Shown here: piece after piece, positions 6,715-52,500 of the stretch
How the letters are laid out: each line of letters starts with the position of its first letter
Position numbering within the stretch: position 1 is the stretch's first letter
Origin: Mesostigma viride
Taxonomy: Eukaryota; Streptophyta; Mesostigmatophyceae; Mesostigmatales; Mesostigmataceae
DNA: 64,000 bases
Direction of reading: 5' to 3'
Assembly: GCA_009746045.1 (NCBI GenBank)
Contig: RPFO01000448.1
Span: forward strand, 2,752,882-2,816,881
Made by a program: the position numbers and the translations under genes
The notes under the pieces: model-generated
The model's input: only the letters and a program-made list of their open reading frames with translations
What the model was told of the DNA's origin: nothing
Database searches by the model: none

Positions 6715-8490
6715 GTGGACAAGGACAACTGTGGGTGTGGGGGGAACAGCTTGGTGGACACTTTCTGACTGGTCCGTAAGGCCTCTACCCGAAGGGGGTT
6801 GTGAGCCAACGGCCGTTGGAATTGGAAAAACATTATCATATGCTTTTTATTCGTTTGATAGGGTGGCAAGCAGCCAGGATGTGTCTTTCATGCAGCTTAG
6901 TGGTGGCTATTACCATTTTTCTTCCAAGAAAGGCCTCCAAAAAATCTAGCTGAGCATAAACATGGGCTTCACTGGTTCGTAAGGCATCCACCCTTCCCAG
7001 AGGGGGTTGTGAGCCAACGGCCGTTGGAATTGGAAAAACATTATCATGTGCATTTCATTCGTTTCATTGGGTGGCAATAAGGCAGGATGTGTCTTTCATG
7101 CAGCTTAGTGATGGCTATTTACCATTTTTCTTCCAAGAAAGGCCTCCAAAAATCTAGCTGAGCATAAAGATGTGGTTGAATGGTTCGTAAGGCATCCACC
7201 CTTCCCAGAGGGGGTTGTGAGCCAACGGCCGTTGGACATGTGCATTTCATTCCTTTGAGTGGGTTGGCAATCAGCCAGGATGTATCTTTCATTCAGCTTT
7301 GTGGTGGCTATTACCATTTTTCTTCCAAGAAAGGCCTCCAAAAATCTAGCTGAGCATAAAGATGTGGTTGAATGGTTCATAAGGCATCCACCCTTCCCAC
7401 AGGGGGTTGTGAGCAAACGGCCGTTGGAATTGGAAAAACAATAAAATGTGCATTTCATTCGTTTCATTTGGTGGCAATAATGCAGGATGTGTCTTTCATG
7501 CAGCTTAGTGATTGTTATTACCATTTTTCTTCCAAGAAAGGCCTCCAAAAATCTAGCTGAGCATAAAGATGTGGTTGAATGGTTCGTAAGGCATCCACCC
7601 TTCCCACAGGGGGGTTGTGAGCCAACGGCCGTTGGACTCGAAAAACATTACCATGTGCATTTCATTCGTTTAATTGGGTGGCAATAAGGCAGGATGTGTC
7701 TTTTATGCAGCTTAGTGGTGGCTATTTACCATTTTTCTCCTAGAAAGGCCTCCAAAAAATCTAGCTGAGCATAAAGATGGGGCTTGACTGGTTCGTAAGG
7801 CATCCACCCTTCCCACAGGGGGGTTGTGAGCCAACGGCCGTTGGAATTGGAAAAACATTATCATGTGCATTTCATTCTTTTCATTTGGTGGCAGTAAGGC
7901 AGGATGTGTCTTTCATGCAGCTTAGTGATGGTTATTACCATGTGCCTTCCAAGAAAGGCCTCCAAAAATCTAGCTGAGCATAAAGATGTGGTTGGATGGT
8001 TCGTAAGGCATCCACCCTTCCCACAGGGGGTTGTGAGCCAACGGCCGTTAGACTTGAAAAACATTACCATGTGCATTTCATTCGTTTCATTTGGTGGCAG
8101 TAAGGCAGGATGTGTCTTTTATGCAGCTTAGTGGTGGCTATTTACCATTTTTCTCCTAGAAAGGCCTCCAAAAAATCTAGCTGAGCATAAAGATGGGGCT
8201 TGACTGGTTCGTAAGGCATCCACCCTTCCCACAGGGGGTTGTGAGCCAACGGCCGTTGGAATTGGAAAAACATTATCATGTGCATTTCATTCTTTTCATT
8301 TGGTGGCAGTAAGGCAGGATCTGTCTTTCATGCAGCTTAGTAATGGTTATTACCATGTGCCTTCCAAGAAAGGCCTCCAAAAATCTAGCTGAGCATAAAG
8401 ATGTGGTTGAATGGTTCGTAAGGCATCCACCCTTCCCACAGGGGGGTTGTGAGCCAACGGCCGTTAGACTTGAAAAACATTACTTACGTA
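6715..8490. repeat. 208-bp tandem array carrying the 14-bp palindrome
   Basis: Nine units, each with CCAACGGCCGTTGG or a one-base variant, at 6806, 7014, 7222, 7414, 7622, 7831, 8038, 8246 and 8454. Spacing is 207-209 bp except one of 192. Each unit also contains 'tgcagcttagtg', 'aaggcctccaaaaatctag' and 'ggcatccacccttccca'. No gene lies inside. The array ends about 50 bp before gene 1. Confidence 0.9.
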
Positions 8491-8521
8491 TTACGCACGT
8501 GCCAATTGGCGCAGGGGAGGG

Positions 8522-9391
8522 ATGGCGGAGACGGGCGAGCTGGAATCTTCGACCCGCGCTGCGATTGCCTGCGTGGCAGCAAACGTACTTAACCGGGCTC
8601 GCGAGATCCACGGATGGGTACGGCAGCACGAGAAGCGCCTGGGTCGCCAGTTTGCGGTTTTGGTCGTGTATGACTCGTTCGCCTCAGTAGGACGACAGAT
8701 TAATCTCCAGTTGCTGGACATGTACTTCGCCTTGGCTGGCGGATTCTACAAGCCCACGCCGGCGGATCGGGTTCCACTCAATCGAGACGTCGAGTTTCGA
8801 CTTCTGGTGTCGTATGTCGGAAAGGTTGGGTGGGACCAGTGGGAGAAAGACCAGTGGGGGAAATTTCCAGACGCGAGTGAGGCGCAGCCGAGATTGACCG
8901 TATCGGCGAGAGTAGAGGGGGGGGGTTTGAAGGTTTCCATTTTACATTCGGGAATTCCGAGTACGTGAAATTGACGTTTTCACGGATGATCGTTCTCCCG
9001 GGGGTGGGAGGGCCGATGCTCGGCTCGCTTCCAAAGTGTTGCTCGAATCAGGCGTGCTCTGTGATGGAGGGTGTCCACCGCAAGTGCGGGGGTTGTCGAG
9101 ACGTCCGGTATTGTGCTGCCGAATGCCAGCGTGCGGACTGGGAGGAACACAAGAAGTGGTGTACCAAGTATCGTGAGGCGAGAAAGTCTCTCAGCACTAT
9201 GCACGGCGACGTTACAGACAGCTGGTCTGGTGTCAATTTGGCCGGACTTGTAATTCGGATGGGGGGTGAAGTGCATTTCAAGTTCAAAGGTGAAATGTTC
9301 AAGGTTTTTTGATGGGACTGAATCGTACCCAAGGGCGATTTGTGAGGCGATGTCCGCGCTGGGGGAACAGTACCCCTGTTCGACTGCGTGA
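8522..9391 (+). CDS. MYND zinc-finger protein (gene 1), frame broken twice
   Basis: The ATG at 8522 opens a soluble protein. The frame is lost at a G9 run (8917-8925), continues one frame over through a MYND finger (about 9036-9163), and returns to the first frame at a T6 run (9305-9310), ending at TGA 9389-9391. The finger shows KCGGCRDVRYCAAECQ and then DWEEHKKWC, matching the MYND pattern of seven Cys and one His; MYND fingers usually bind proline-rich partner proteins. The N-terminal part (for example RQFAVLVVYDSF) is unassigned. The two breaks cancel, which fits either two homopolymer sequencing indels or an old decaying copy. The last codons and the 320 bp after them match the end of gene 2, so the two are a duplicated pair at least at their 3' ends. 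A TGTAA signal lies near 9525. Confidence 0.65.
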
Positions 9392-9440
9392 GGGGAATGG
9401 ATTCTGCGACTGAAGGCATTTTGGGTGTGATTTTCTTGCG

Positions 9441-9656
9441 CCAACGGCCGTTGGAACTTGCAAATTAGCGTTTGATTTTCTTCGCACCCGGAAGTAGGGT
9501 GTGGTTTGCCACGTGGCACCATGGATGTAATTAATAAATGCATAATAAAACATTTTTCGTGCGCCAACGGCCGTTGGAGACTGAAAACTAGTGTGTGCTT
9601 TGTGCGCGTAATAAATCTTAAAATTCTTGTTGTTTTTTCAAGCCAACGGCCGTTGA
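9441..9656 (+). promoter_or_regulatory. Three palindromes between genes 1 and 2
   Basis: CCAACGGCCGTTGG at 9441-9454 and 9564-9577, and the variant ending TTGA at 9643-9656. Between the first two lies ATGTAATTAATAAATGC, a likely poly(A) region for gene 1. The TTGA variant ends 40 bp before the start codon of gene 2. A role as a dimeric-protein binding site or an RNA hairpin is inference. Confidence 0.5.
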
Positions 9657-9717
9657 CGGTGAGAAATGTATATCAAACGGTGTCGGTGGGTTGCAGATGA
9701 CGTTCTACAGGACGGAG

Positions 9718-10805
9718 TTAGGTTAATATTGTGCGGAAACCTTTTTGCCACTTGGGCTACTCAGGTTCCGCACAATATTACCGGCGATAACCACTCGCCG
9801 GACACTCAAGTTCACGACGTCGTGAACTTGAGTGTCCGGCGAGTGGTTATCGCCGGTAATATTGTGCGGAACCTGAGTAGCCCAAGTGGCAAAAAGGTTT
9901 CCGCACAATATTAACCTAACTAAAACCTAGCCTCTTGGGGCGAGGACGAATCACTAGGCTCGGAACACCCGTATGCATGAATATGATCGAATATAAGCAT
10001 CTCGTTGGTGCAAATATCGATATGAATATGATCGAATATGAGCATCTCCTTGGTGCGCATATGATTAGAGCCGGGTGCCAAATCGGAACGAATTATTCCC
10101 CCAAATAATCCGCTTCCGAGTGGATTCGAACCTGCGCCCCGCAAGGATCCAGGTCTTAGTTAGGTTAATATTGTGCGGAAACCTTTTTGCCACTTGGGCT
10201 ACTCAGGTTCCGCACAATATTACCGGCGATAACCACTCGCCGGACACTCAAGTTCACGACGTCGTGAACTTGAGTGTCCGGCGAGTGGTTATCGCCGGTA
10301 ATATTGTGCGGAACCTGAGTAGCCCAAGTGGCAAAAAGGTTTCCGCACAATATTAACCTAACTAAGACCTGGATCCTTGCGGGGCGCAGGTTCGAATCCA
10401 CTCGGAAGCGGATTATTTGGGGGAATAACTCGTTCCGATTTGGCACCCGGCTCTAATCATATGCGCACCAAGGAGATGCTCATATTCGATCATATTCATA
10501 TCGATATTTGCACCAACGAGATGCTTATATTCGATCATATTCATGCATACGGGTGTTCCGAGCCTAGTGATTCGTCCTCGCCCCAAGAGGCTAGGTTTTA
10601 GTTAGGTTAATATTGTGCGGAAACCTTTTTGCCACTTGGGCTACTCAGGTTCCGCACAATATTACCGGCGATAACCACTCGCCGGACACTCAAGTTCACG
10701 ACGTCGTGAACTTGAGTGTCCGGCGAGTGGTTATCGCCGGTAATATTGTGCGGAACCTGAGTAGCCCAAGTGGCAAAAAGGTTTCCGCACAATATTAACC
10801 TAACT
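9718..10805. mobile_element. 1,088-bp nested palindromic insertion with 7-bp target duplication
   Basis: Three copies of a perfect 204-bp palindrome (about 9717-9920, 10159-10362, 10601-10804; each GTTAGGTTAAT...ATTAACCTAAC) are separated by a 238-bp segment and its reverse complement. The whole is therefore one palindrome centred near 10261, with only one mismatch noticed between the arms. GACGGAG flanks it directly on both sides (9711-9717, 10806-10812), a 7-bp target-site duplication. It carries no transposase. The 61-93-residue open frames inside it are by-products of the symmetry. The spacer contains GGTTCGAATCC, a perfect tRNA B-box. Confidence 0.85.
10383..10402 (+). other. tRNA-like B-box inside the palindromic element
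   Basis: GGTTCGAATCC follows 'gcggggcgca', as in the T arm of tRNA-Leu or tRNA-Ser, but the stem after it does not pair properly. The mirror copy lies near 10120-10140 on the minus strand. This suggests the 238-bp spacer derives from a tRNA or a tRNA-headed SINE, not a working tRNA. Confidence 0.35.
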
Positions 10806-10812
10806 GACGGAG

Positions 10813-11409
10813 GGGGGCGAGTGGATCAACTTGGAAGACAGGCTTCTGGGAGTGGTTAAGAGCGCGCTCAGGCTTCTGCCGGACATTAAGCTGGATTTTA
10901 TGCCCAAGGAGGGTGAAAGGTCTCTTTTGAGACCGGATGTCGCGAAGGCCGCGGCTCTTGTTTTCAATATCGAGGGTCGGGGACTCCCAAAGCCGACCGT
11001 AGAGCCATTTGAGGAGGTGCTTGTGAGGTGTGGTGCTATAAGGCCCTATGATCCATCAATACCCAGCCCAATTTGTTTTCAGTCGATCGATGCTGATGGT
11101 AATGAAAGTTGGATACCGATGGCGCGGCCATATGATAGGGGAGAAGGGTTTAAGGGTTTAGGGGAGGTGGGACGGTTCGAATGGGTCATCTTGAAGGACG
11201 GCAAGTACTTCAAGCATCACACTGACCTGATCATCGACCGGCTGTTCGTGTCTGCTGGAGATTGCATGTTCTGGTTGAGGGAATACGTGCATGAGTGGGG
11301 ACCCGACGGTGTTGACGAGTTTGAGAAAGCGGTTCGTGAGGTGATGTACGCGTTGGGGCAGGAGTACAAGTTCGAGTGCGTGACTGACGCGAATCGATTA
11401 TGCGACTGA
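10813..11409 (+). CDS. Gene 2 of the palindrome island, main part; 5' end split off by insertion
   Basis: Codons 1-7 lie at 9697-9717 (MTFYRTE), directly after TTGCAG. The 1,088-bp palindrome interrupts, and the frame resumes at 10813 with GGEWINLEDRLLGVV. Excising the element and one target copy gives one open frame of 205 residues ending at TGA 11407-11409 (NRLCD). The protein is soluble, with no signal peptide or membrane segment and no family I recognise. The C-terminal helix (REVMYALGQEYKFEC) matches the C-terminus of gene 1. The first palindrome after it begins 26 bp past the stop, and TGTAA lies near 11491. Unless the insertion is spliced out, the allele should be disrupted. Confidence 0.7.
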   Translation, partial: GGEWINLEDRLLGVVKSALRLLPDIKLDFMPKEGERSLLRPDVAKAAALVFNIEGRGLPKPTVEPFEEVLVRCGAIRPYDPSIPSPICFQSIDADGNESWIPMARPYDRGEGFKGLGEVGRFEWVILKDGKYFKHHTDLIIDRLFVSAGDCMFWLREYVHEWGPDGVDEFEKAVREVMYALGQEYKFECVTDANRLCD

Positions 11410-11434
11410 AGTGTTGGGTGTGATTTTCTTTGCG

Positions 11435-11625
11435 CCAACGGCCGTTGGCAGCTGGAAAGTTGGGTGTGATTCGCCACGTGGCACTATGGATGTAATCAAT
11501 AAATGCATAATAAAAATTTTTTTCGTGCATTTTTCGTGCGCCAACGGCCGTTGGAGACTGGAAAATGGTGTGATTTTCGTGCGAGTAATAAATCATTCTT
11601 GTTGTTTCAAGCCAACGGCCGTTGA
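11435..11625 (+). promoter_or_regulatory. Three palindromes between genes 2 and 3
   Basis: CCAACGGCCGTTGG at 11435-11448 and 11541-11554, and the TTGA variant at 11612-11625. The order, spacing and intervening TGTAA/AATAAA-like stretch repeat what is seen between genes 1 and 2. The start codon of gene 3 follows the last palindrome by 39 bp. Confidence 0.5.
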
Positions 11626-11664
11626 CGGTGAGAAATGTGTATCAAACGGTGTTGGTGGTCGCAG

Positions 11665-12447
11665 ATGGCGGTCAAATGCACGGTTGCGTGGTGCCAGGAA
11701 GCGAGAGCAGGAGGGGATGACTTGTGCGTGCGTCATGTCAGCGTGCGAACGGGAATGGCAGGGAGGGTGAAGGATTTGTTTGCAAAAAAGGGGGGATGTA
11801 TCGCCCGGGATTGCCAGCTTCCATTCGGGACGGATTGCATGCCTTTTTGTGATGGACACGCCAAGTTGTCAGGGGAGATGCAAGAGGTGATCAAAGGAGG
11901 CTTGTTGTTTGTGAATGGCGAGTCCAGTGCTGGTGAAGGACCTCTTGTCCTGAGTTTTGAGGTGGACGGTGCTGGAAGTCTGGAAAGAATGGCGGTCCGG
12001 TCGCGGGAATGGATGTTGAATCACCCTGACTTTGACTCGTATGCCTACTGCCAAGGTTTCGGGGACGCCGTTTTTACATGGATGCTGTGCTCGGAGGATG
12101 ACGTGCATGCGATTGTTTCGCATGACGACTTGGATATCGCAGGCGCCATGGGCGCAGACCTGTTGTTGTATTTCATGATTGGATGGGGTTGCGGATTTTT
12201 GGAAGGTGATTGGTGGGTCCCGCACCTCGCAAGGCTTACTTTTGCGGTCGGCGAATTGCCTGTACCTGTTGAAGTGTCAAAAACTCGTGTGGAGATGGCT
12301 GCCGTTCTGGCATCGGGGGTTAAGCGCCAAGCCCGATTTGCCATGACCGTTGTTGCTGATGCTGAGGGGGAGGAAATTGAAAAGGTCGTGGAAAGGGTCG
12401 TCCTGGCCTCTGCTTTGGTGGAGAGAGCAAGGAATGCATGCGACTAG
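11665..12447 (+). CDS. Double zinc-finger protein (gene 3)
   Basis: The start ATG 11665 directly follows GCAG and is at the same place relative to the palindrome as in gene 2. The 260-residue protein opens with two finger-like motifs: C5-x4-C10-x10-C21-x2-H24 and C45-x4-C50-x11-C62-x2-H65. The Cys/His spacing resembles small treble-clef or knuckle fingers that bind nucleic acid or protein. The rest is a helical, acidic, soluble region (for example YAYCQGFGDAVFTWML) of unknown family. It ends RNACD-stop, like the CD ending of gene 2. A palindrome follows the stop by 13 bp. Genes 3, 5 and 6 share the N-terminal finger design, so they look like one expanded family. Confidence 0.75.
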   Translation: MAVKCTVAWCQEARAGGDDLCVRHVSVRTGMAGRVKDLFAKKGGCIARDCQLPFGTDCMPFCDGHAKLSGEMQEVIKGGLLFVNGESSAGEGPLVLSFEVDGAGSLERMAVRSREWMLNHPDFDSYAYCQGFGDAVFTWMLCSEDDVHAIVSHDDLDIAGAMGADLLLYFMIGWGCGFLEGDWWVPHLARLTFAVGELPVPVEVSKTRVEMAAVLASGVKRQARFAMTVVADAEGEEIEKVVERVVLASALVERARNACD

Positions 12448-12460
12448 GTGTTTTTGGTCG

Positions 12461-12474
12461 CCAACGGCCGTTGG
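12461..12474 (+). promoter_or_regulatory. Palindrome CCAACGGCCGTTGG between genes 3 and 4
   Basis: A single perfect copy, 13 bp after the stop of gene 3 and 44 bp before the start of gene 4. It is the shortest intergenic gap in the island. Confidence 0.5.
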
Positions 12475-12518
12475 ACTTGCAAAATGTCCTGTGAGCTGAG
12501 TCCGTTTCTTAACTTGCC

Positions 12519-12863
12519 ATGGACGTCGGTTGTGCAGGGGCAGGGTGTAGGATGGAGTGCGGAAAAGAAGGAAAGGAAGGGGGGGAGACTACAAAGGAAA
12601 ACCTGATAGAGATTGTGGAGGCCGAACTGGAAGACCTGCCCGATCTGGTTCTCGAAGAGGACGGGCAATTGCACGCTGAACGTCTTGATGGCGTGGGCAT
12701 GATGATGTCGGAGGTTGATGGGTATGGTGGAATTGCTAAAGGTGTATTGCGTAAATTGAGGCGTGAGGAGGATGTGGGGACTCCGGCTCATGTTTTGGTC
12801 AGTTTTATGAACGACAATTGGGGTCGAATGCAACCCACTAAAGATGGGGAGGATGTTGACTAG
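12519..12863 (+). CDS. Small acidic protein (gene 4)
   Basis: A 114-residue frame starting MDVGCAGAGCRMECGKEG and ending GEDVD-stop. It has a short Cys cluster at the N-terminus (C5-x4-C10-x3-C14), perhaps a reduced finger, then an acidic helix (EIVEAELEDLPDLVLEE) and a C-terminal part with PAHVLVSFMNDNWG. It has the same strand and palindrome-flanked setting as its neighbours, and TGTAA with AATAAA lies just after the stop (about 12883-12900). No family recognised. Confidence 0.6.
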   Translation: MDVGCAGAGCRMECGKEGKEGGETTKENLIEIVEAELEDLPDLVLEEDGQLHAERLDGVGMMMSEVDGYGGIAKGVLRKLRREEDVGTPAHVLVSFMNDNWGRMQPTKDGEDVD

Positions 12864-12955
12864 AATGTGATTTTAGGATGAATGTAAATTTATTTAATAA
12901 AGAAGAATCATTTGGAAAAAATCGCCTGATGGTGTCAAGTTTTGTGCGTCTAAGG

Positions 12956-13004
12956 CCAACGGCCGTTGGGGTGTGTGGAATTTAACAGGGCCAACGGCCG
13001 TTGA
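12956..13004 (+). promoter_or_regulatory. Two palindromes before gene 5
   Basis: CCAACGGCCGTTGG at 12956-12969 and the TTGA variant at 12991-13004. Again the variant ending TTGA is the copy nearest the start codon (54 bp). Confidence 0.5.
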
Positions 13005-13057
13005 CCCTGCTGAATGCGTGCGTTTGCGGGTGGTGTAAAAAATATCGATGTGCACAG

Positions 13058-13642
13058 ATGACCTCATTCGATGACCCCATTCGATGCGAACATCCGGATT
13101 GTCAATGGGAAGGAGTGCCGACGGAAAGCGAGTGGTTCTGTCCCAAGCATTCTGACGTATGGGGGGCGTTGTTTGCCGAAATCGAGAGCGGGCTGATGAC
13201 GATTGACCGTCACATCGTGACGAAAAAGTGGAAGCCTTGGCCCAACAACATGGTTTTGGTCTTGTACTATGTTGACAAGAAGCCTCGATTCATGCTGCGT
13301 GATGCAGAGTGGGTGATAGAGGAGGTGGGACAGATGCGACCTGGAGAGGGGATAGGCGGTAAGGACAAGCCGCCAAGGCATGTGTGGGCTTACATGGGAG
13401 ACCATCCCGACTGTCCAACGGCCAAAGTGTGGCATGATATGGGAAGGGACCTGGCCACGGAGTCCGCGTATGAGTGCGCGCGACTCGTGACAGCGCTCTT
13501 GAAGGGGGAGGTGAAAGACCTGATGCGCAAGGGGGGGTTGGTAGAGCAGATTAGACAGCAGATTAGACGTGTGTGTGATTTTGATGAGGAGATTGATGAG
13601 AAGCCGGCAAAGAGGGGCAGGATGGACAGAATTGCTCAGTAA
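13058..13642 (+). CDS. Zinc-finger protein (gene 5)
   Basis: I chose ATG 13058, directly after CACAG, giving 194 residues. An in-frame extension upstream would have to start on a non-ATG codon in the palindrome. One finger lies at the N-terminus: C10-x4-C15-x12-C28-x2-H31. A mid-region with NNMVLVLYYVDKKPRF and HVWAYMGDHPDCP follows, and the C-terminus is basic (EKPAKRGRMDR) and could be a nuclear localisation signal. TGTAA occurs near 13684. Unknown family, related to genes 3 and 6 by finger design. Confidence 0.7.
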   Translation: MTSFDDPIRCEHPDCQWEGVPTESEWFCPKHSDVWGALFAEIESGLMTIDRHIVTKKWKPWPNNMVLVLYYVDKKPRFMLRDAEWVIEEVGQMRPGEGIGGKDKPPRHVWAYMGDHPDCPTAKVWHDMGRDLATESAYECARLVTALLKGEVKDLMRKGGLVEQIRQQIRRVCDFDEEIDEKPAKRGRMDRIAQ

Positions 13643-13865
13643 GAAAGAGAGGGAGAAAATATGATTTGATTAATCTGATGCGTGTAATTGAAACTAATTT
13701 ATTTTGTCTCATAAAACTTCTTTGAACGGACCTTTGAACCAACAATTATTGCACAACAAGACTAGATTGAGAATTGTGTGAGAAAGACGCCAGAGGGGGT
13801 TCTGACGGTCCTTATTGCCCCTGTTATACAATGGCTGCTGTATGGGACTCATGGCAATTGCGCAG

Positions 13866-14654
13866 ATGGCAACGAAATGCAAAATCTGTACGGAGCCCGT
13901 AAGGGTCGAGGGACTGTGCGCGGAACATTACAAGTTCCTACAAGCGCACGACCTCGAGTACCAAAATGCCAAGGATCCATACGGGGGGTGTGGATTTCTT
14001 AGATGTGATAGACCACTGGAGGGATTGGATGTGTATTGCAAGACACATCTACCTTTTGCCGAGAAGTTGGAGGACGTGTGCGCTCGTGGGATCGCATACG
14101 TAGCAAGTTTGCAGATGTTGATGGGGAAGACCGGAATGACACGCTCGGTCCTCCACTTCACGGCAACGCACACTGGGGAACGGAAAGTTGAGCTGGTGCG
14201 CCTCGACAGGCAGGGACTCGAGATTTCGGCAGAGGGGGACAGCGCGTACGGGTTTGCTCATGGGCAAAACGTTACCATGGGGGATTCCTTGCAGGGTGTG
14301 GCGCGTGAATGCGCGTACACCTTGATGATGAATAATGGATTTGTGGAAGCACAAAGACTGCACAAGGATATTTTGGAGGCTCTTCTTGCCGCAGAGCCGG
14401 TGAGACTGCCGACGCTCCCGAGGCCTGAGGAGCGGGACCGTTTGATCAGGATGGTGGTGAAGGCGGATATAGATGCAGATGTGGAGGCCGCAAAGGCGAA
14501 GGCAGAGGAAGCGCGTCGTGCAAAGGAGGAATCGGATCAAGAACTGTTGGAGAAGATGCAGAGCTCCAACAAAATTTTGCATCGTTTGGGGATGGCGGAC
14601 GTCGCTTATGAATACGAGTCCGGGAAGGGGAAGAAACAAACGAGGAAAAGATAA
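13866..14654 (+). CDS. Double zinc-finger protein (gene 6)
   Basis: ATG 13866 follows GCGCAG; in-frame ATGs at 13842 and 13851 are alternatives. The 262-residue protein has two fingers: C5-x2-C8-x9-C18-x2-H21 and C42-x4-C47-x10-C58-x2-H61. A globular region (FTATHTGERKVELVRLDRQG) comes next, then a long Ala/Glu/Lys coiled coil (about residues 200-235) and a Lys/Arg tail (GKGKKQTRKR). The basic tail suggests nuclear location. This is the one gene of the cluster without a clear palindrome directly upstream. Family unknown. Confidence 0.7.
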   Translation: MATKCKICTEPVRVEGLCAEHYKFLQAHDLEYQNAKDPYGGCGFLRCDRPLEGLDVYCKTHLPFAEKLEDVCARGIAYVASLQMLMGKTGMTRSVLHFTATHTGERKVELVRLDRQGLEISAEGDSAYGFAHGQNVTMGDSLQGVARECAYTLMMNNGFVEAQRLHKDILEALLAAEPVRLPTLPRPEERDRLIRMVVKADIDADVEAAKAKAEEARRAKEESDQELLEKMQSSNKILHRLGMADVAYEYESGKGKKQTRKR

Positions 14655-14876
14655 TAATGGGAATGGTCGCCCACTGTTCTTGTCACAGAAATGCTTTTGT
14701 TAATGCTGGCGAACTTGGGACGGTCGTCCGTATTTCAACATTTCCTTGCCTTTAAAATTGATTGATGGGTAAATAATAATACTGAGCAAGCCTTCCATTT
14801 TATGTGTCTGTGGTCATACAATTTCGTTATTGTTTCAACCCTTGCAACGATGCATGTAAGTCTCAACCTTGGTGTC

Positions 14877-15400
<524 letters not shown>

Positions 15401-15427
15401 TCATTGAATTGAACAAAAAAAATTCTC

Positions 15428-15725
15428 TTATTGCCCCAATCATGGCTATTCTCTTAATGCCCTATCATGGCTATTTGTTTGTGTATGTTTTGCCCATGTT
15501 ATTACATTAATGGCATGATGTTGTGGATTGCTAGCTCTATCTATGATGGTTGTTCGTTTGTGTATGCTTTGCCCATGTTGTTACAGTAATGGCATGATGT
15601 TGTGGATTGCTAGCTCAATCTATGATGGTTGTTCGTTTGTGTATGCTTTGCCCATGTTGTTACAGTAATGGCATGATTTTGTGGATTGCTCAACCTATGA
15701 GGGTTGTTCGTTTGTGTATGTTTTG
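15428..15725. repeat. Tandem repeat, about 80-bp unit
   Basis: Four drifting copies containing 'atgatggttgttcgtttgtg', 'tatgctttgcccatg' and 'taatggcatgatgttgtgga'. Confidence 0.8.
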
Positions 15726-15736
15726 CGCGCAGATCA

Positions 15737-15830
15737 CAATGGATTGCACCATCTGCCGCAGCAAGCGAAGCCCCCTTACTGGTTCCAAGATCTTATCCTA
15801 CTGGATGCCAAGCAGGCTGGCGAAGGGTAT
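15737..15830 (+). CDS. Possible small exon with a CxxC motif
   Basis: After CGCGCAG the sequence reads MDCTICRSKRSPLTG... up to a possible donor at GCGAAGG|GTATCC. The CxxC start is like gene 6, so it could be an upstream exon of the gene that continues at 16381, or a truncated relative. Left as weak. Confidence 0.25.
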
Positions 15831-16380
15831 CCCAGTACGTACTTTGAAACTTGATGCCGCAAAACAACTACAACTTCGTTTTAACCCTTTAGCCGTTTTG
15901 AGTGATATTTACAGCGGACATTACATTTTTGTTGCTACGGGATGAGAATTGAGCTTTGTAATGCTAACAGGTGTCACAAACCAAACTGTCCGCTATTTGT
16001 AGTGGGCATTTATTGTTAGAGCTTGCAGCTGGGTCCCTGCTCCTCCACATGCAACCTTGGTGTTCATGAGCCCTTTACTAGCTTCCTTTCTGTCAGGGGG
16101 TGCTATATTTGGCACCCATAGGACATTGCAATATGACCAATGACATGACCCCCAAGGTGGTGAATATATGTGTGTGCTTGTGTCCTATAATGGACCATAA
16201 CTAACTATTAGGTTGGTTTGTGGACATTATCATGGAAAGTGACAATTGCCCGGTTTTTATAGCGGGCAGTTGGACACGGTTTTAAGGGTTGACCTATGAG
16301 CTTTGTCAGATGTGTGTGCTGCACCGCACCGCTTGCTAACATATTCGGCGGATTTTTTCTTTGTCGTCTGCGTGTCACAG

Positions 16381-16680
16381 CGTGCTTGTACGCACAACCA
16401 CCCGCCTTCCCCTCCGCCGGCGCCCCCGCCGCCGGGCTCTCCGCCGCCACCGGTGTTGCCCCCTGCGGCCGCCGGCCCTTCCGCGCCGTCGGAAGCTGCA
16501 GCGGCAGCACAGCAAATGCCCCCTCCCCCCGCACCATCGTCGGGGCAAGAGGCGCGCGGCGTTCATGCAGCAAAGTCGGCGAAGGAGCGGAGGAAATCGG
16601 CGGCTTCTGGGTCATCGGGTTCCGATGCCGCGACGGCAGCAACTGGAAAAGCAACCCACAAGACACTGCCAGCTGCCCGG
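16381..16680 (+). CDS. Exon A of an unrecognised large gene
   Basis: It is bounded by CGTGTCACAG| and |GTAGGTG, both in phase 0, and gives exactly 100 codons. It encodes a Pro/Ala-rich disordered segment followed by a basic Ser/Ala/Lys stretch (AKSAKERRKSAASGSSGS). It joins in phase to exon B at 21816, where GRPSRQRTEEERRRW continues the basic character. If this is right, the intron is 5.1 kb and holds the whole CCTTGT satellite and a palindrome array. Upstream exons were not identified with confidence. Confidence 0.5.
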
Positions 16681-16721
16681 GTAGGTGTTACGCACAAAGA
16701 TGGGATTTTCTTGCGCCATCC

Positions 16722-21187
<4,466 letters not shown>

Positions 21188-21202
21188 CTTGCTTGATTTT
21201 CT

Positions 21203-21775
21203 TGCGCCAACGGCCGTTGCAATTTGGAAATTAGGGTGTTATTTTTTTTTTGCCCAACGGCCGTCGGAACCTTGAAATTAGGGTGTGATTTTCATGCGCC
21301 AACGGCCGTTGGAACCTGTAAATTAGGGTGTGATTTTCATGCGCCAACGGCCGTTGGAACCTGTAAATTAGGGTGTGATTTTCATGCGCCAACGGCCGTT
21401 GGAACCTGGAAATTAGGGTGTGATTTTTCTGTCGCCAACGGCCGTTGGAACCTGGAAATTAGGGTGTCATTTTTCTTGCGCCAACGGCCGTTGGAACCTG
21501 GAAATTAGGGTGTGATTTTTCTCGCGCCAACGGCCGTTGGAACCTGGAAATTAGGGTGTCATTTTTCTCGCGCCAACGGCCGTTGGAACCTGGAAATTAG
21601 GGTGTGATTTTTCTTTCGCCAACGGCCGTTGGAACCTGGAAATTAGGGTGTGATTTTCATGCGCCAACGGCCGTTGGAACCTGTAAATTAGGGTGTGATT
21701 TTCATGCGCCAACGGCCGTTGGAACCTGGAAATTAGGGTGTTATTTTTCCGGCGACGGCCGTTGGAACATAGTAC
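21203..21775 (+). repeat. Array of ~45-bp palindrome repeats, first
   Basis: About thirteen units of 'gcgCCAACGGCCGTTGG' plus 'aacctggaaattagggtgtg' plus 'atttttctt'. The spacer between palindromes is almost constant, unlike CRISPR spacers. It lies inside the proposed intron between exons A and B and ends about 40 bp before the acceptor. Confidence 0.95.
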
Positions 21776-21815
21776 TGACCTTCCGGCTATCTGTATGTTT
21801 TTTGCATGTGATCAG

Positions 21816-22937
21816 GGGCGTCCGTCAAGGCAGAGAACGGAGGAAGAGCGGAGGAGGTGGGCTTACAAGATTGAACATGGGGTGGCGGAAAGGCATCTCA
21901 CAACATTTTTTGAGGACTGGCGCCAACGAGCTCCGGGCACCGACTTATGGTCGGGGATTGTGAAGACCTTTGAGAGGAAGGGGCTGCTGACGACACGTGC
22001 TGGAAATGCGAAGCCCAGCATTTTGGACTCCTGGGAGCCAGCGCCATCCTCTCATGTGCACGACAAGAACCTAACTGACAGCATACAGGCGGCGTTTCAT
22101 CTGCGGCAGAAGTTTCGTCTAGTGCCAGACGATGTCGACATCGTGGGGGGGTCCGCGATTGCGACTCAAGTACGGGTCTTTACGGACAACTTGTGCCAAC
22201 TCCCGGAACTAATGAGGCATCGGACGGTGACGGTGCGGAATTGTAAGGGGCTCGCGCCGTGGTTCGTGGGGGCCGGCACAAGTCTGACGAAGGCAAAATG
22301 TGCCGTGCTGATCTTCCGGTTTGCGTGGCAGGTGCTGGCAGACCAGGAGCCCGATTCTTACAATGCCTGGCTGGAAGAGAATCCAGGGTTTTCTGACAAA
22401 ATTAAAAAACTGACGGGGGAGGACAGTGACCGTGCCGTGCAGAGGTTCGGATACTTTCGTTCGCCAACGGCCGAGGAAGGGAGGGCCATTCTCCGGACGC
22501 ACTCCAAGAAGGATATGGCGGCCGCGTGCTCGCAGGATTTGATCACCATGGACTTGAATACGTCCGAGTGGTCAGATGCATCTGACCGTGAGGCAGTACT
22601 TGAGCTCACGAACACCGCGTTGGGCTACATGCTCGCGTACGACAAGCCTTTCGTGTTTGCGCAGTTTGCCGTGCTGGACGGCAACCACTACACGCAGATG
22701 TTGAAGTCCGTGATTTTTGAGGGCTCAGACGAGCAAGTGAGGACTGCGATAGCTGGCGAGATTGCCGGTAAACAAAAGGGCAAGTACGTGGAGACAACCG
22801 AGGAGGCGTTTGATTTGTGGAGGGGGTTGGTGAGGGACGCGGACAAGTTCATGTACACCAATCTGGACGTGCTCAAGGGCTGGGAGGTGGAGGGGGAAGC
22901 ACTGATCCCGCCCATGAAGGACATGCGGACGCAAAAG
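21816..22937 (+). CDS. Exon B of the unrecognised large gene
   Basis: Bounded by TGTGATCAG| and CAAAAG|GTAAAT, phase 0 on both sides, 374 codons. The start is basic (GRPSRQRTEEERRRWAYK). A mostly helical soluble domain follows: FFEDWRQRAPGTDLW, KAKCAVLIFRFAWQVL, NTALGYMLAYDKPFVFAQFA, DADKFMYTNLDVLKGWEV. I recognise no family. Without splicing, the frame would run on to a TAG at 22977 after 13 intron-like codons. The palindrome core appears in degraded form in the exon (22460-22475), as if sequence moved between repeat and exon. Confidence 0.6.
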
Positions 22938-22992
22938 GTAAATATAACGGATCGGGTGTGGGAACGTTGTAGGCACTAGATGTGATTTTTGT

Positions 22993-23556
22993 TCGCCAAC
23001 GGCCGTTGGAACCTGGAAATTAGTGTGTGATTTTTCTTTCGCCAACGGCCGTTGGAACCTGGAAATTTTGTTGATATTTTTCTTGCGCCAACGGCCGTTG
23101 GAACCTGGAAATTCGGTCGACATTTTTCTTGCGCCAACGGCCGTTGGAACCTGGAAATTAGGGTGTGATTTTTCTTGCGCCAACGGCCGTTGGAACCTGG
23201 ATATTAGGGTGTGATTTTTCTTGCGCCAACGGCCGTTGGAACCTGGAAATTAGTGTGTGATTTTTCTTGCGCCAACGGCCGTTGGAACCTGGAAATTAGG
23301 GTGTCATTTTTCTCGCGCCAACGGCCGTTGGAACCTGGAAATTAGTGTGTGATTTTTCTTTCGCCAACGGCCGTTGGAACCTGGAAATTTGGTTGATACT
23401 TTTCTTGCGCCAACGGCCGTTGGAACCTGGAAATTCGGTCGACATTTTTCTTGCGCCAACGGCCGTTGGAACCTGGAAATTAGGGTGTGATTTTTCTTGC
23501 GCCAACGGCCGTTGGAAACTGGAAATTAGGGTGTGATTTTTGTTCGGGAACGGCCG
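22993..23556 (+). repeat. Array of ~45-bp palindrome repeats, second, with higher order
   Basis: About thirteen units of the same type as at 21203. The spacer variants run in a set order (agtgtg; gttgat; cggtcgac; agggtg), and this four-unit block recurs seven units later, so the array grew by duplicating several units at once. It is located inside the proposed intron between exons B and C. Confidence 0.95.
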
Positions 23557-32734: not shown

Positions 32735-34007
<1,273 letters not shown>

Positions 34008-46531: not shown

Positions 46532-49500
46532 TCAGCTGCCCTGCAAACACAGAATGTTGTTCGCCATGGCCATCCTATACAGGAACCGCTCCAACTCAAG
46601 CCCGTGCGCCTCGCTGGCCGACCACTCCTCCCCCCCATCCTCCTCCACCCCAAACCCGTACAAGTCCACCCGCGTGCACAGCTCCGACTGGACCAACGCA
46701 AGCGCAGCTGAGAACCCAGGGCTCGCCTGCAGGGTCCCCTGGAAGATCACGTCCGTGTCGGCCGTGGCCACGGGGACCTCGTACTTGGCCAGCTTCTGGT
46801 ACAGCTCCGCGTAGTTCAGCGACCGCGTGATCGCCTGCAGCGAGAGGAAGGGGACGGGGGGCAGCTCCCCCCGCCCGGCTGCGTACCGCGCCGCAAACGG
46901 GGCGTCAAACTTAAGCGTGCCCAGCGGCATGCGCTGCTGCTTCCCGCCGCTATATAAATAGAACCGCGATGGTGGCACGTAGCGCTCAGGGGGGCCGAAC
47001 TGGGCCGTCGGCCACTCCGCCGTCTCCGGCGACGGCAGCTCCGTGACAAACTGGACCGACATCCTCGAACCGGCCCACGGCTCATGCCCAGGCGCCGGCA
47101 TCGGGCCGACCCGGATCACCGTGTCGTGGGCGTCGATCTCAGCGCCCTGGCGGGAGCCAGGGACCCCCCGCACGACCGCACACGTCCCAAGCGAACGCGA
47201 GCTGAGGTCGACCCCGTGGTAGCCCGCGCCTAGCTCCCCACATGCGCGCCGCGTGGCCTCGCACGACATGCTTCCTTCACCGGTATACCCGCCGGGACGG
47301 AGCAACAGATAGGCCGATCTAAGGTCCCCCTCGGTCATACCCTTGGGCTCAAAGGACCGCTGGCTGACGCGCCGCCCGGCCACAGAGGTGCGCCTCGAGC
47401 GGCGGCCGAACGCGCGCGCATCATTGAGTGATTTGGGCTGGGAGAGCTTCTGCTGTGGGCTGAACAGCCCCTCGCCCCCCCTACTTGACGGGGCAACATC
47501 GTCGGGGGCATGATGCTCAGGCAGGTCCATCAGCCAGCTGTGCTCCCGGTTGGGCACGCCGACCACCTCCGGCACATGGTGGTCCCCGAAGAAACTGGCA
47601 GCCGCCACGTCTGCCGCCGAACCATCCGCCGCCGCAAAGGAGTCCAATGGGACCACCCTAGGAGTATCCAACCCAACCCCTCCCGAGGGGGCAACATAGC
47701 CGCCACCGCCACTGCTGCCACTGTCGCCACTGCCGCCACCGCCGCCGGTGCTGCTGATGGTCATCGTGATGCTGGGGCTGGTGGTGCTTGTGGCAGGCAC
47801 AGGGAATGTTGCCGCGACAGAGGGGGTGTTGACGATGGGCGGCGCTATGGTGGGGGGAATTACAATCTCGGGTTGTGTGGGAATTGCCTCTGCTGTAGGG
47901 GTTACCGCTACAGTGACCACTGGGGTGCTGGCCTGCGACGGCTGGGTAGCAGCCCCCTTATTTTGGTCTCGATCGCTACCGGCCATCCCACTACTGTCAT
48001 TATCATCACTTCCCTCCTCTCCCTCCTCTTCCTCCTCCTCCTCCCTCCCTGCGACGGAGTGGATCGCCGCGGCTTGCGGCACCGCTTTCGGGCCGCCGCC
48101 ACCACCCCTGCCGACCCCAAACTTCTTACGCAGTCCCGACCCAGGGACATGCTTTGAGAGCCGATCCATGAGACCCCCCGCAACGCCTAGGGCCCCCCCC
48201 CCACTTTCCCCTCCACCCCTACCTGCATCCGCTGCCGTGGGTGGGCTCTTGAGCCAGTTCCCAAACACGCCCAATAACTTACGGCTCCGATATAGATTCA
48301 CCTCGCCCACATCGGCCCCCTCACCGGCGGGCGCGGCCTCTCCCCCAAGCCGGTCAATGATGCCATTTACCGCTTCCAGCATCGCCTGCAAATGCTCTGA
48401 CGAGTCATCCCCGCCACTGGCACCCGCCCCGGGGGACCCAAGCACCTGCATCAATGACGCGAGCGATGCCGCCCCTCCTACTGATGCCGCTGCTGATGCT
48501 GGCATCTGCCCCATTCCGCCCATTCCACCCATTCCGCCCATTCCGCCCATTCCGCCCATTCCGCCCATTCCGCCCATTCCGCCCATTCCGCCCATTCCGC
48601 CCATTCTGCCCATTCCGCCCATTTCGCTCATTCCGCCCATTCCGCCCATTTCGCCCACACCGCCCTGGCTCCCCCCAAGGCCACCCAGGCCAGCCCACAC
48701 ACTGCCCTGGACCCCGCCAGCACCACCCTGATTCCCCCCCGCGCCGCCCGGGCCTTCCCCCGCGCCCCCCTGGCCCACCCCCGCGCCATCCCATGCCAGA
48801 CCACCCTGCGCCACGACCGGGCTGCTCTGGCCTCCGGAACCCTCGCCCTCGCCCTTGCCCGCACCCTCGCACACCGTCCGAATGACGCACATGCGCGGCA
48901 CACTGAACTGGGTATCGCTCAACACCACCCCGACCATCGTGTTGGACACGATCCCGGGGGGGGGGATGACCACGCGGCAGGTGGTCGGGAGCTGGTAGCC
49001 ACCCCCACCGGCGCCTGGCCCCCCACCCGTACTATCGCCACCACTACCACCCGTCGCAACCCCCGCGTCCTCGTACAGATCGGACGTGTCTTCGGCGTCG
49101 CTGTCCCAATCCTTGTCCAACGCGGCCTCGATGATGCCAGGGTCACCACCACCGTCCGCAACACCCTCACCGCCGCCCTTGACCCGGGCGGGCGGGTTAG
49201 AACCGCCGCTTGGGCCCCCGCCAGCCCCCGCGTCAGAAAACCCGGACGACTCCCACACGGGCGTGTCCGTGGTTATGGGGCTGCCCTGGGGGGCGCCCAG
49301 GGTCCCTGGCCGCGACACGCCCTCTGTAGACCGTGCGGCCTCCGCGGCAGGCACCACCGGCGACGGCCTGCCTTCCGACAGAGCAGATGATCTGACTTCC
49401 GATACAGCAGAGCCGACAGGGGTTGGCGCCGACAGGGGTTGGAAGGCACCCTGAGGTGGATTGGCAGCAGGGAGGTTGCCGGTGCCGCTCGCTGTGACAT

Positions 49501-52500
49501 TATTCCACCAGCCGTCAGCACCGGTGGGACCGACAGGGGTTGTAGCCACGTCTGCTGGCAAGGACCCTGCCGCCCCAACCTCGAGACTATACCCCGTCCC
49601 TGCCCACCCAAACGCTCCGTGCAGTGCCTGCTGCGATGCCTGTTGCGGCGCACCTGCGATGCCTGTTGCTGTACTTGAGGCGCCAGTTGCAGCCGCCCCC
49701 GGCATGGGACCACCCTGCACACCGCCCGGGCCACCCTGGCCGCCGCCCTGGCCTGGACCAAACACGTTCCCCTGCCCTTGCCCCGTTACCTGCCCCATGT
49801 CCAGCCTCACCCCGACCCCCTGGCCAAACCCGGCCTGGCCCACCCCCTGGCCCACCCCCTGCCCGCTCCTCAGCTGCTCCAGCTTCTCCTCCAGACCCTG
49901 CAGCCGCTCTCGCAGCATCGCCTCGCGCTGCTGGCTCAGCAGCTCCTTGGCCATGTCCGCCTGCTGGTGCTGCATAGACATCATCAGCAGCTGCCCCTGC
50001 AGGTGCTGCTGCGCAGCCAGGACGTCCGCACCCGGCCCCAGCCCCCCCAGGCCCCCCAGGCCCAGGCCTGCCTGCGGGTAAAACCCCAGACCGCCCAGGT
50101 TCGCCACCGGTTGCTGGTAAGGCCCCCCCTGCAACGCCCCTGGGAGGTACGCGCCCACCCCCGGCCCCGGCTGCTGCCCCGCGTTGGCGTTCACATTATG
50201 ACCACCGGAAATGCTGGCCCCCGCCAGTGCCGCCGACAGTGCCGCTTGCTTCTCCTTCTCAGCCCTCAACTGCTCCACGAGCGACGACATCTCGCGCACC
50301 AACGCTGCAGACTGCGCGTCCTGGGTCCCTGGTGCGCTTGGGGTCGCACCTGCCCCTCCCCCTCCCCCCGCCCCTACCGGTGGCATGCGATCTTTCTTCG
50401 CCCCCTGAGACCACGCCACCTCGCCCGGCTGGCCCGGCTCCATGACCTCCGACTCGTCCTGCACCAAGAACGGCTGCTGCAGCTGCTGTTGCTGTGGCTG
50501 CCCCATCCGGCTATTCGCCTTCTGGTTCCGGCTATTCGCAGGGTCCAGGTTTCTGTTCACGGCCTGGTTCTTGCTGTTCGTCCCCGCCTGCTCGTCCGCC
50601 TCCCACATCCGCTCTAACTGCTCCAAGCGGGCATCCGCCTCATCCTCCTGCGCCTGCTGCAACAACTCCAAAAGCTGCGCCACCTGCTCCTCCGACTGCG
50701 CGGTCGGCGTGACGCTCCCCCCCCTGCCCTCCCCCACCCCTTGCTGCTGCTGCATTAATGCTGACTGCCGCTTGGACATTTTCTTTTCGTCCTTGCCAAA
50801 ACCCACCCCCCTGTCGCGCAGAAGCTGCCGCTGCGTGGGCGCTGCGCCCCTGCCCGGCGACAGCAAGCTCGCCAGGTAACCCTGGAAATCATCCAGGGGG
50901 GTGGAGGACGCTGCGGCTCCCCCTGGCCCCCTGGCCCCCGTCAACCCAACCCCCCCCTCCATGGCCTGCCCCTTACTTCTCTGTTTGAACGCCGCGAAGT
51001 CGCGCAGGACCACGTCGGCCATCGCATCCATAGGCACATTGTCGCCCTTGCTGGCGGATGCCCCCGCTGCCAGCAACGTCTGCAGCACCGTCGGCAGCTG
51101 GACGGTGTCCACCTTTAATCCGCCTGAACGTTGTGTAGCACGCGCGCTCGTCGGCCCCACGACCAACGCCCCCTCGTCAACGGCCCCCGCAATTATATCC
51201 CCCGATCCCGCCATACCGTCATTATTTCTCACGGCATCGCGCACCGACCTTTTGCCTGCGGCCGTTTGGGCGAGGCCAACCCCGCCCGCCTCCCCCTGCA
51301 CCTGTGCGGCCACCTGCTCCAGCAGGCGCGTCACCTGGCCCTTTGCGCGGCGTGTCTTGGCCGCGAGCGCGCGCGCATCTCCCCGGTCCCCTGCCGACAT
51401 GATCACCGCCGCGCCGCCGCCGCCCGTCGATGCATGGCTGCCGTCACCCGCCACCCCCAGCACAGCTTGCCATCGGGCGCTGATGGGACTCCCCCCCTGC
51501 ACTGAAAGGGTCCCGTCCCCGCCACTGGTCACCACCGAGAAGGGCGAGTCATCATTGCCCCCCCCATCACTCACAACGTTGCCACCGGAATCCCCCCCAT
51601 CACTCACAACGTTGCCACCGGAATCTCCGCTCCCCCTAGGGGCGCCAGCATTTTTGTCCCCACTGCTGCTACTGCTGCTGCTGCCTCCCTGCTCGCTGCC
51701 TGCCCCCCTGTTGTTCTTACCGCTGCTGGCATCGGCACGGATCTCCATCGCCGCGAGCCGCTCCACGATCTTCTCCATCACGCTCGCCGCCACCTCCAGC
51801 TGCGACGCGAGCGAGGGAGGGCCCGCATCCTTGCTGCCGGAACCAGCCTCGTTGCCAGAATCCTGGGAAACCTCGCTGCTAGAGGTAGGATCTTGGCCAA
51901 CCTCTCGGCTAGAGGGAGCATCTTGGGTAGCCTCTCGGCTAGACCTTTTTCTACTGGCGGACGGGCGGTCCCGCGCGGGAGACTCGCTGGCATCAGAAGC
52001 AGGGCGGGCGCGGGCGCGGGCGGGCGAACCAGGGGGCGCGTCCTGGGTGGGAGTCCCTGACCGGGGGGCACGGGAGGCGCGGGAGGCATCTGACCGGGCA
52101 CGGGGCTGTACCTCGGGGTCATTGGGCCGCTCCAGCTGCGACGCGAGCAAGGGAGGGCCCGCATCCTCGCTGCCGGAACCAGCCTCGTTGCCAGAATCCT
52201 GGGAAACCTGGCTGCTAGAGGTAGGATCTTGGCCAACCTCGCGGCTAGAGGGAGCATCTTGGGTAGCCTCTCGGCTAGACCTTTTTCTACTGGCGGACGG
52301 GCGGTCCCGCGCGGGAGACTCGCTGGCATCAGAAGCAGGGCGGGCGCGGGCGCGGGCGGGCGAACCAGGGGGCGCGTCCTGGGTGGGAGTCCCTGACCGG
52401 GGGGCACGGGAGGCGCGGGAGGCATCTGACCGGGCACGGGGCTGTACCTCGGGGTCATTGGGCCGCTTAAACTCTGGCTCGGATGCCCGCCGGGCGCTGG

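Follow-up and report, generated by a model that had tools for sequence, protein, structure and literature searches.

Among the described mobile elements that come closest to the locus studied here are MITEs, which ordinarily have an imperfect or spaced stem, and foldback transposons (FB; Tetris, Tm1), which combine long inverted ends and a modular build with target duplications and many transposase-free copies. According to the available portions of the published reports, Tetris of Drosophila virilis makes duplications of 8–10 bp (PMC4079207) and Tm1 of Meloidogyne duplications of 9 bp, with internal tandem repeats in its inverted ends (PMC3169594). Template switching, in which one arm of an inverted repeat serves as template for the other and stems are perfected or kept perfect, has been proposed to make and maintain stems (PMC8794818, PMC7202029, PMC3820800); the cases covered in the available parts of these reports are RNA stems and short quasi-palindromes in E. 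coli and yeast. Here, we describe a nested palindrome in a genomic contig of Mesostigma viride that is probably a non-autonomous foldback/MITE-type DNA transposon of modular structure A(SA)n, moved in trans, whose mirror arms are renewed by copying from arm to arm. Its copies have exact ends, 5-bp duplications and empty sites, occur in solo, A-S-A, A-S-A-S'-A and longer forms, and include a hybrid, mirrored variants and breaks at the centre.

The window, the whole stretch of 64,000 nucleotides that we analysed, contains one copy of the element, arranged as follows.

9711 to 9715: left target duplication, GACGG, 5 bp; the single-copy joined site is matched elsewhere in the genome
9716 to 10805: whole element A-S-A-S'-A, 1090 bp, AGTTAGG...CCTAACT; the 1090-bp form is also present at other sites
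9716 to 9921: left palindrome A, 206 bp, perfect
9922 to 10157, plus strand: spacer S (left arm), 236 bp
10158 to 10363: central palindrome A, 206 bp, perfect
10364 to 10599, minus strand: spacer S' (right arm), 236 bp, mirror of S except at 10429
10600 to 10805: right palindrome A, 206 bp, perfect
10806 to 10810: right target duplication, GACGG, 5 bp
10804 to 11409, plus strand: continuation of the interrupted open frame, belonging to the target and not to the element; its first 7 bases are the element end plus the duplication

A preliminary description of this DNA had recognized the nested mirror symmetry, and its palindromic units, three in number and mutually identical, and its pair of mirror-image spacers are borne out. 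The dimensions it gave need correction, as each unit measures 206 bp rather than 204, both spacers 236 bp rather than 238, and the element 1090 bp rather than 1,088. The single giant palindrome it reported is present across the whole 1090 bp, but is not perfect, since A at 10092 faces C at 10429, the one mismatched pair. Inverted repeats make up most of the element, as in foldback elements, all 1090 bp lying within mirror arms, and we saw no transposase inside it, in line with the earlier view of a transposon-like, transposase-free insert. The family behaves like a foldback/MITE element and has the structure that defines one. It shares with foldback transposons the features listed above and differs from Tetris and Tm1, as far as the accessible accounts of these go, in its 5-bp duplication, its gapless palindrome and a perfect-palindrome end unit that is repeated in the centre. 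Like MITEs, its solo A-type units (175–208 bp) have inverted ends, a target duplication, many copies and no coding sequence that we could see; unlike MITEs, the mirror is gapless and units join via the spacer into larger mobile forms. The combination of short length, non-coding sequence, inverted ends, duplication and many copies is found in the solo units L221, L222 and L183, the window copy being a 1090-bp composite. Among the matches listed in a search of the open-access literature, seen in extract, we found no element of the same plan.

The duplication had been read as 7 bp, GACGGAG. We set it at 5 bp, GACGG, because other copies show 5 bp, and AG forms the first two bases of the element. 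A flush direct repeat borders the element at 45 of 61 parsed loci (41 of 57 without four duplicate loci), with a length of 5 bp in 44 and of 6 bp in one, which lies in a C-run (L137); at the remaining loci the element is cut short, interrupted, run together with another or clipped by the stretch fetched. Within the duplications there is a slight bias towards a symmetric pattern, in which the second base is C and the fourth G (0.51 each). Empty sites likewise fit a foldback element. When 45 joined-flank sites were queried among the fetched loci, gapless paralogous empty sites were found for nine separate insertions (L138, L139, L143, L147, L148, the L149 group, L165, L182 and L184), and empty sites with one or more gaps for five further ones. 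For the window, the joined site with a single GACGG was found at all 40 places scored out of 341 candidates in the genome, 195 of its 196 bases matching at 100%.

What does the element interrupt? The ATG at 9697 is in phase with the downstream frame (10804–11406), and 1090 + 5 is divisible by 3, so the claim that excision restores the frame is arithmetically right. That a gene is split is accurate insofar as an open frame is interrupted; given the matches at 40 of 40 scored places, however, this frame is part of a high-copy repeat. This is a warning that an interrupted gene may be one of many copies of a repeat. The downstream frame, 10804 to 11409, has no match in Pfam, PHROGs or NCBIfam, and the one protein searched for a viral origin of the target genes has no relative in viral contigs or phages.

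A surviving host frame is also what an introner would leave, that is, a MITE-derived insertion that is spliced out. The sequence offers GT at 9717–9718, a branch-point-like CTAAC at the right end of the element and AG at 10811–10812, and introners with duplications and inverted ends exist (PMC9860276, in the part available). We nonetheless hold this reading to be highly improbable: splicing at the nearest GT-AG pair, judged by eye, would leave the product one base short of the empty site, no fewer than 14 of the 45 queried insertions and that of the window sit in repeated sequence, and 1090 bp exceeds the 30–654 nt range of median introner lengths in the accessible text (PMC9860276).

Several other features surround the target. 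An ORF with a MYND zinc finger lies just upstream of the insert at 8983–9309, and the intergenic stretches on either side of the interrupted gene are near copies of each other. In 6806–23515, the 14-bp palindrome CCAACGGCCGTTGG is present 34 times, against 0 in shuffles; many of these sites fall between ORFs of the same strand, next to them or within tandem repeats, and the high-copy empty site of the window lies inside this cluster. CCAACGGCCGTTGG was also found in 108 viral stretches, with a single site each among the matches listed, so that a viral source is not indicated by this motif; a literature search found no mention of it.

The preliminary description considered such an object rare. 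A search of the genome (440 Mb, 2,243 contigs) with the 26-base element end, allowing up to 3 mismatches, instead found 499 forward and 507 reverse matches, 1,006 in all, with 0 for the reversed control. The searches with unit and spacer that had been proposed as a check likewise returned many further copies: the 206-bp unit matches at 100% over its full length at 40 places, plus one half unit (40 of 680 candidates scored), and the 236-bp spacer at 100% at 41 places, one of them the window (40 of 329 candidates scored). The 61 parsed loci comprise the window, 16 sites from the unit search (L135–L150), 19 further sites from the spacer search (L158–L176), 20 further regions from the first 100 listed end matches (L177–L196) and 5 sites (L197–L201) picked from about 27 new ones for their closely spaced pair of spacers; the sample is weighted towards high-scoring matches. 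Beyond this genome, half of the element has no match in phage and plasmid collections, and neither a 21-mer in genome contigs nor a 25-mer in viral contigs found one. A 15-mer of the element occurs in 22 stretches of viral contigs, which we take as chance, as none matches A by BLAST over more than 21 bases, or S at all.

Two observations concern particular copies and their surroundings. L151 (4800–10000) and L152 (521–5715) form an inverted duplication, 99.8% identical, on one contig, which carries the same element insertion beside a satellite with a 173-bp period. L181 and L194 are old, diverged A-S copies on contig C69, and in L181 two A-S copies of the same make-up lie 3,624 bases apart, as if the element had been absorbed into a larger repeat.

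Missed-adapter reads make giant palindromes, which is a reason to consider an assembly or foldback-read artefact. Such an artefact is unlikely because nine other fully palindromic full-length elements (eight of 1090 bp, one of 1082 bp) occupy separate sites, and because arm-specific variants exist. Many sites moreover have a 5-bp repeat and flanks that differ between left and right, and two families share a common plan; taken together, we give the artefact next to no credence. Nor is the mirror always intact. Among adjacent S/S' pairs that have a middle, leaving out one pair without any, the middle is exactly palindromic in 19 of 35 and not so in 16. The tip of the palindrome is lost in several elements (L141, L145, L146), and L135 has 103 bases at its centre, the last 16 of which match the end of S.

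The element comes in several sizes. Family 1, to which the window copy belongs, includes a solo unit of 175 bp with a 5-bp repeat (L183), two units separated by 27 bp (L182), an A-S-A element of 648 bp with a 5-bp repeat (L165) and a longer form with three spacers in one direction (L159). A second, related family has 1821 + 1819 = 3,640 ends in the genome, with 0 for the reversed control, and follows the same plan with its own palindrome A' (206–208 bp) and its own 132-bp spacer, giving a size ladder of 206, 544, 882 and 1220 bp. We fetched 12 loci of this family, selected among the first 100 listed places so as to represent the size forms; nine have a 5-bp repeat, among them solo units of 206 bp (L221) and 208 bp (L222, within a C-run) and A-S-A elements of 544 bp (L219, L220, L225). 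Read by eye, L171 is a hybrid whose left arm, of family 1, meets a family-2 right arm at the dyad of the central unit, with GGAGG on both sides, which suggests that the same machinery serves the ends of both families.

The order of the modules is also constrained. S is followed by S' in 34 of 57 non-duplicate loci, 30 of them with a duplication, and the reverse two-spacer order occurs in none; in two of these loci (L163 and L171) one spacer is a mere fragment of a family-2 spacer. All four of the three-unit family-2 elements fetched obey the family-1 orientation rule, and in two-spacer copies the box-B-like end of the spacer (see below) faces the centre. Seven loci have two or more spacers in a single direction (L159, L172, L179, L181, L190, L192, L201), some of them old fragments or separate elements, and three have mixed orientations (L160, L170, L180). 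In L160, the right spacer has a copy of the opposite end where its inner end should be, as a template switch would give.

A ladder of A, A-S-A and A-S-A-S-A with a 5-bp duplication would also fit a TRIM element similar to Cassandra, in which A would serve as a short LTR and S as internal region, an integrase would make the duplication, and the solo, single and multi-unit forms would result from LTR recombination. LTRs generally need TG...CA ends, and those found here are AG...CT. A polypurine tract next to the right unit is absent from the two spacers tested: S contains no purine run of at least 8 on either strand, and the purine run of the family-2 spacer begins 16 bases in from the left end of that spacer instead of beside the right unit. 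The unit A is itself palindromic, and the two-spacer elements are mostly inverted, as the 34 of 57 loci above attest. In the available portion of the Cassandra report (PMC7215508), TRIM arrays resemble our element in having shared end units, multi-unit arrays with a shared LTR and polymerase III motifs. Our element departs from such arrays in having no TG...CA ends, in its mostly inverted rather than direct modules and in the absence of the Cassandra primer site, TGGTATCAGAGC, from both of our spacers. We consider a TRIM origin very unlikely, and return to the foldback/MITE-type transposon as the probable identity of the element.

How do the two arms stay alike? The two halves appear to evolve in concert, each being kept like the other by copying. 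In 32 two-arm elements, we counted 67 variant occurrences in both arms and 23 in one arm. Of the former, 52 represent the same 13 changes in S, carried by four elements of one subfamily (L184, L185, L197, L198), whereas 11 of the latter come from L199, whose arms derive from two subfamilies. Variants unique to one sampled element number three in both arms (L145, L146, L189) and eight in one arm, and in L140 one A is changed in both halves, with no such change in the other units of that element. The summed differences between arms are 23, against a mean of 136 (minimum 47) when left and right arms were randomly re-paired 10,000 times, and 10 against 29.3 (minimum 18) in the 27 elements with few changes; as re-pairing ignores relatedness, these comparisons are descriptive and are by themselves no proof of copying.

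More telling is the comparison of the two families. Their half-units share 77 of 109 alignment columns, with 20 mismatches and 12 gap columns (about 29% differ), and align with a score of 39, against a maximum of 10.5 in 500 shuffles. Among the fetched loci, exact palindromes account for 93 of 118 complete units in family 1 and for 16 of 26 in family 2; the remaining 25 of 118 and 10 of 26, respectively, are inexact, those of family 2 with 1–5 mismatched pairs. Half-units that differ by about 29% between families yet are so often exact mirrors imply that changes have been written twice, at mirror positions, many times. This divergence beside exact palindromes is the strongest point for arm copying. 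The copying, if real, is not instant, as one-arm variants and inexact units are common.

The arms may also be alike from youth, one palindromic master having spread recently with no need for arm-to-arm copying. The many identical copies, including A at 100% identity at 40 places (40 of 680 candidates scored), and the excess of one-arm over mirrored variants among those found in a single element (8 versus 3) are in keeping with this, and mirrored variants may partly descend from a master copy that was already mirrored. Against youth as the whole explanation, which we judge rather unlikely, stand the two families, about 71% alike and both rich in exact mirror units, the presence of all 13 subfamily changes in both arms of L184, L185, L197 and L198 (L199 being mixed), and the fact that some single-element variants are mirrored. 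Arm copying is our preferred reading, and it would resemble the template switching described for inverted repeats, although here it would act on mobile palindromes of 206 bp to 1 kb (PMC8794818, PMC7202029, PMC3820800, as far as these are available).

A third level of symmetry lies within the A unit, and a short motif recurs near the inner ends of the spacers.

9724 to 9780: third-level hairpin in the left half of A, TAATATTGTGCGGAA...TTCCGCACAATATTA, from folding of the half-unit
9781 to 9801: second small hairpin, CCGGCGATAACCACTCGCCGG, in the half-unit, also from folding
10122 to 10132, minus strand: box-B-like GGTTCGAATCC, left arm
10389 to 10399, plus strand: box-B-like GGTTCGAATCC, right arm

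The inner fold that had been noticed within each arm is real in the hairpin at 9724–9780, as judged by folding the half-unit against shuffles: the 103-nt half-unit of the window folds better than 200 of 200 shuffles. That of family 2 folds more weakly, 2 of 200 shuffles folding equally well versus 0 of 200 for the window, and also has a small hairpin like that at 9781–9801. Across seven sequences from related families, the third-level hairpin is mostly kept; of its 15 predicted pairs, 3 have changes in both partners and 2 are broken, in two sequences each.

The motif GGTTCGAATCC, which we take to be similar to an RNA polymerase III box B, occurs in the window just in its two mirror copies, versus 0.05 expected, and is also present in the family-2 spacer. 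A tRNA-derived SINE would carry a recognizable tRNA gene with boxes A and B, and we find the box-B-like motif alone: ARAGORN detects no tRNA in the window, and Rfam none up to E = 1 on two element loci. At the gathering score, Rfam has no match in the window; with a loose E-value, the two loci give 23 matches, all under their gathering scores, to 21 microRNA-precursor models, one snoRNA and one tmRNA.

What moves the element, and how might its symmetry be renewed? The two outer ends of A would act as terminal inverted repeats, so that one A, or the stretch between two A units, could move as a unit. A transposase supplied in trans would cut at the outermost A ends and paste into staggered 5-bp sites. 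The arms would be renewed by copying one from the other, most likely through a polymerase template switch inside a hairpin or cruciform, or alternatively through replication of a hairpin-ended intermediate. Of the two origins suggested in the preliminary description, hairpin-capped replication fits as one of several mechanisms compatible with the evidence for arm copying, whereas the insertion of foldback elements into each other finds no support, as the sequences bordering the central unit, GTCTT and AAGAC, are mirror images and not a direct repeat.

More speculatively, the palindrome could be how the element lives, every cycle leading through a hairpin (a single strand or a capped end) from which both arms are regenerated by copying. 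We find this doubtful; if true, it would account for the mirrors at three nested levels, the mirrored variants, the arm swap at the dyad of L171 and the box-B end of the spacer that faces the centre.

The search for an autonomous partner, which covered hAT matches and two long elements, found none. The hAT superfamily makes an 8-bp duplication, in contrast to the 5 bp found here, and at the 12 of 68 hAT matches tested no linked ends were seen, element ends being absent up to about 700 bp downstream of the hAT domains. In L177 and L178, 8-kb gaps between half units hold ORFs that look retrotransposon-like by eye (gag-like zinc knuckles, copia-like RT/RNase H), and we regard these interiors as nested insertions rather than as the partner.

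With 1,006 and 3,640 ends, the two diverged families, many of whose units are still exact mirrors, occur in one genome. They provide a countable, naturally occurring eukaryotic record of how arms copy one another and how palindromes break at their centres, and lend themselves to testing how foldback elements gain and keep symmetry.

Finally, the window contains further features. Minus-strand ORFs at 14860–15400 resemble, by eye, a fragment of a chlorophyte plastid rpoB in this nuclear contig. Two tandem arrays are present, about 743 copies of the hexamer TCCTTG at 16719–21185 and 291 copies of CTCA at 32842–34001. A minus-strand open frame of 2188 codons extends over 46535–53098, with a sialyltransferase (GT29) domain near its end.
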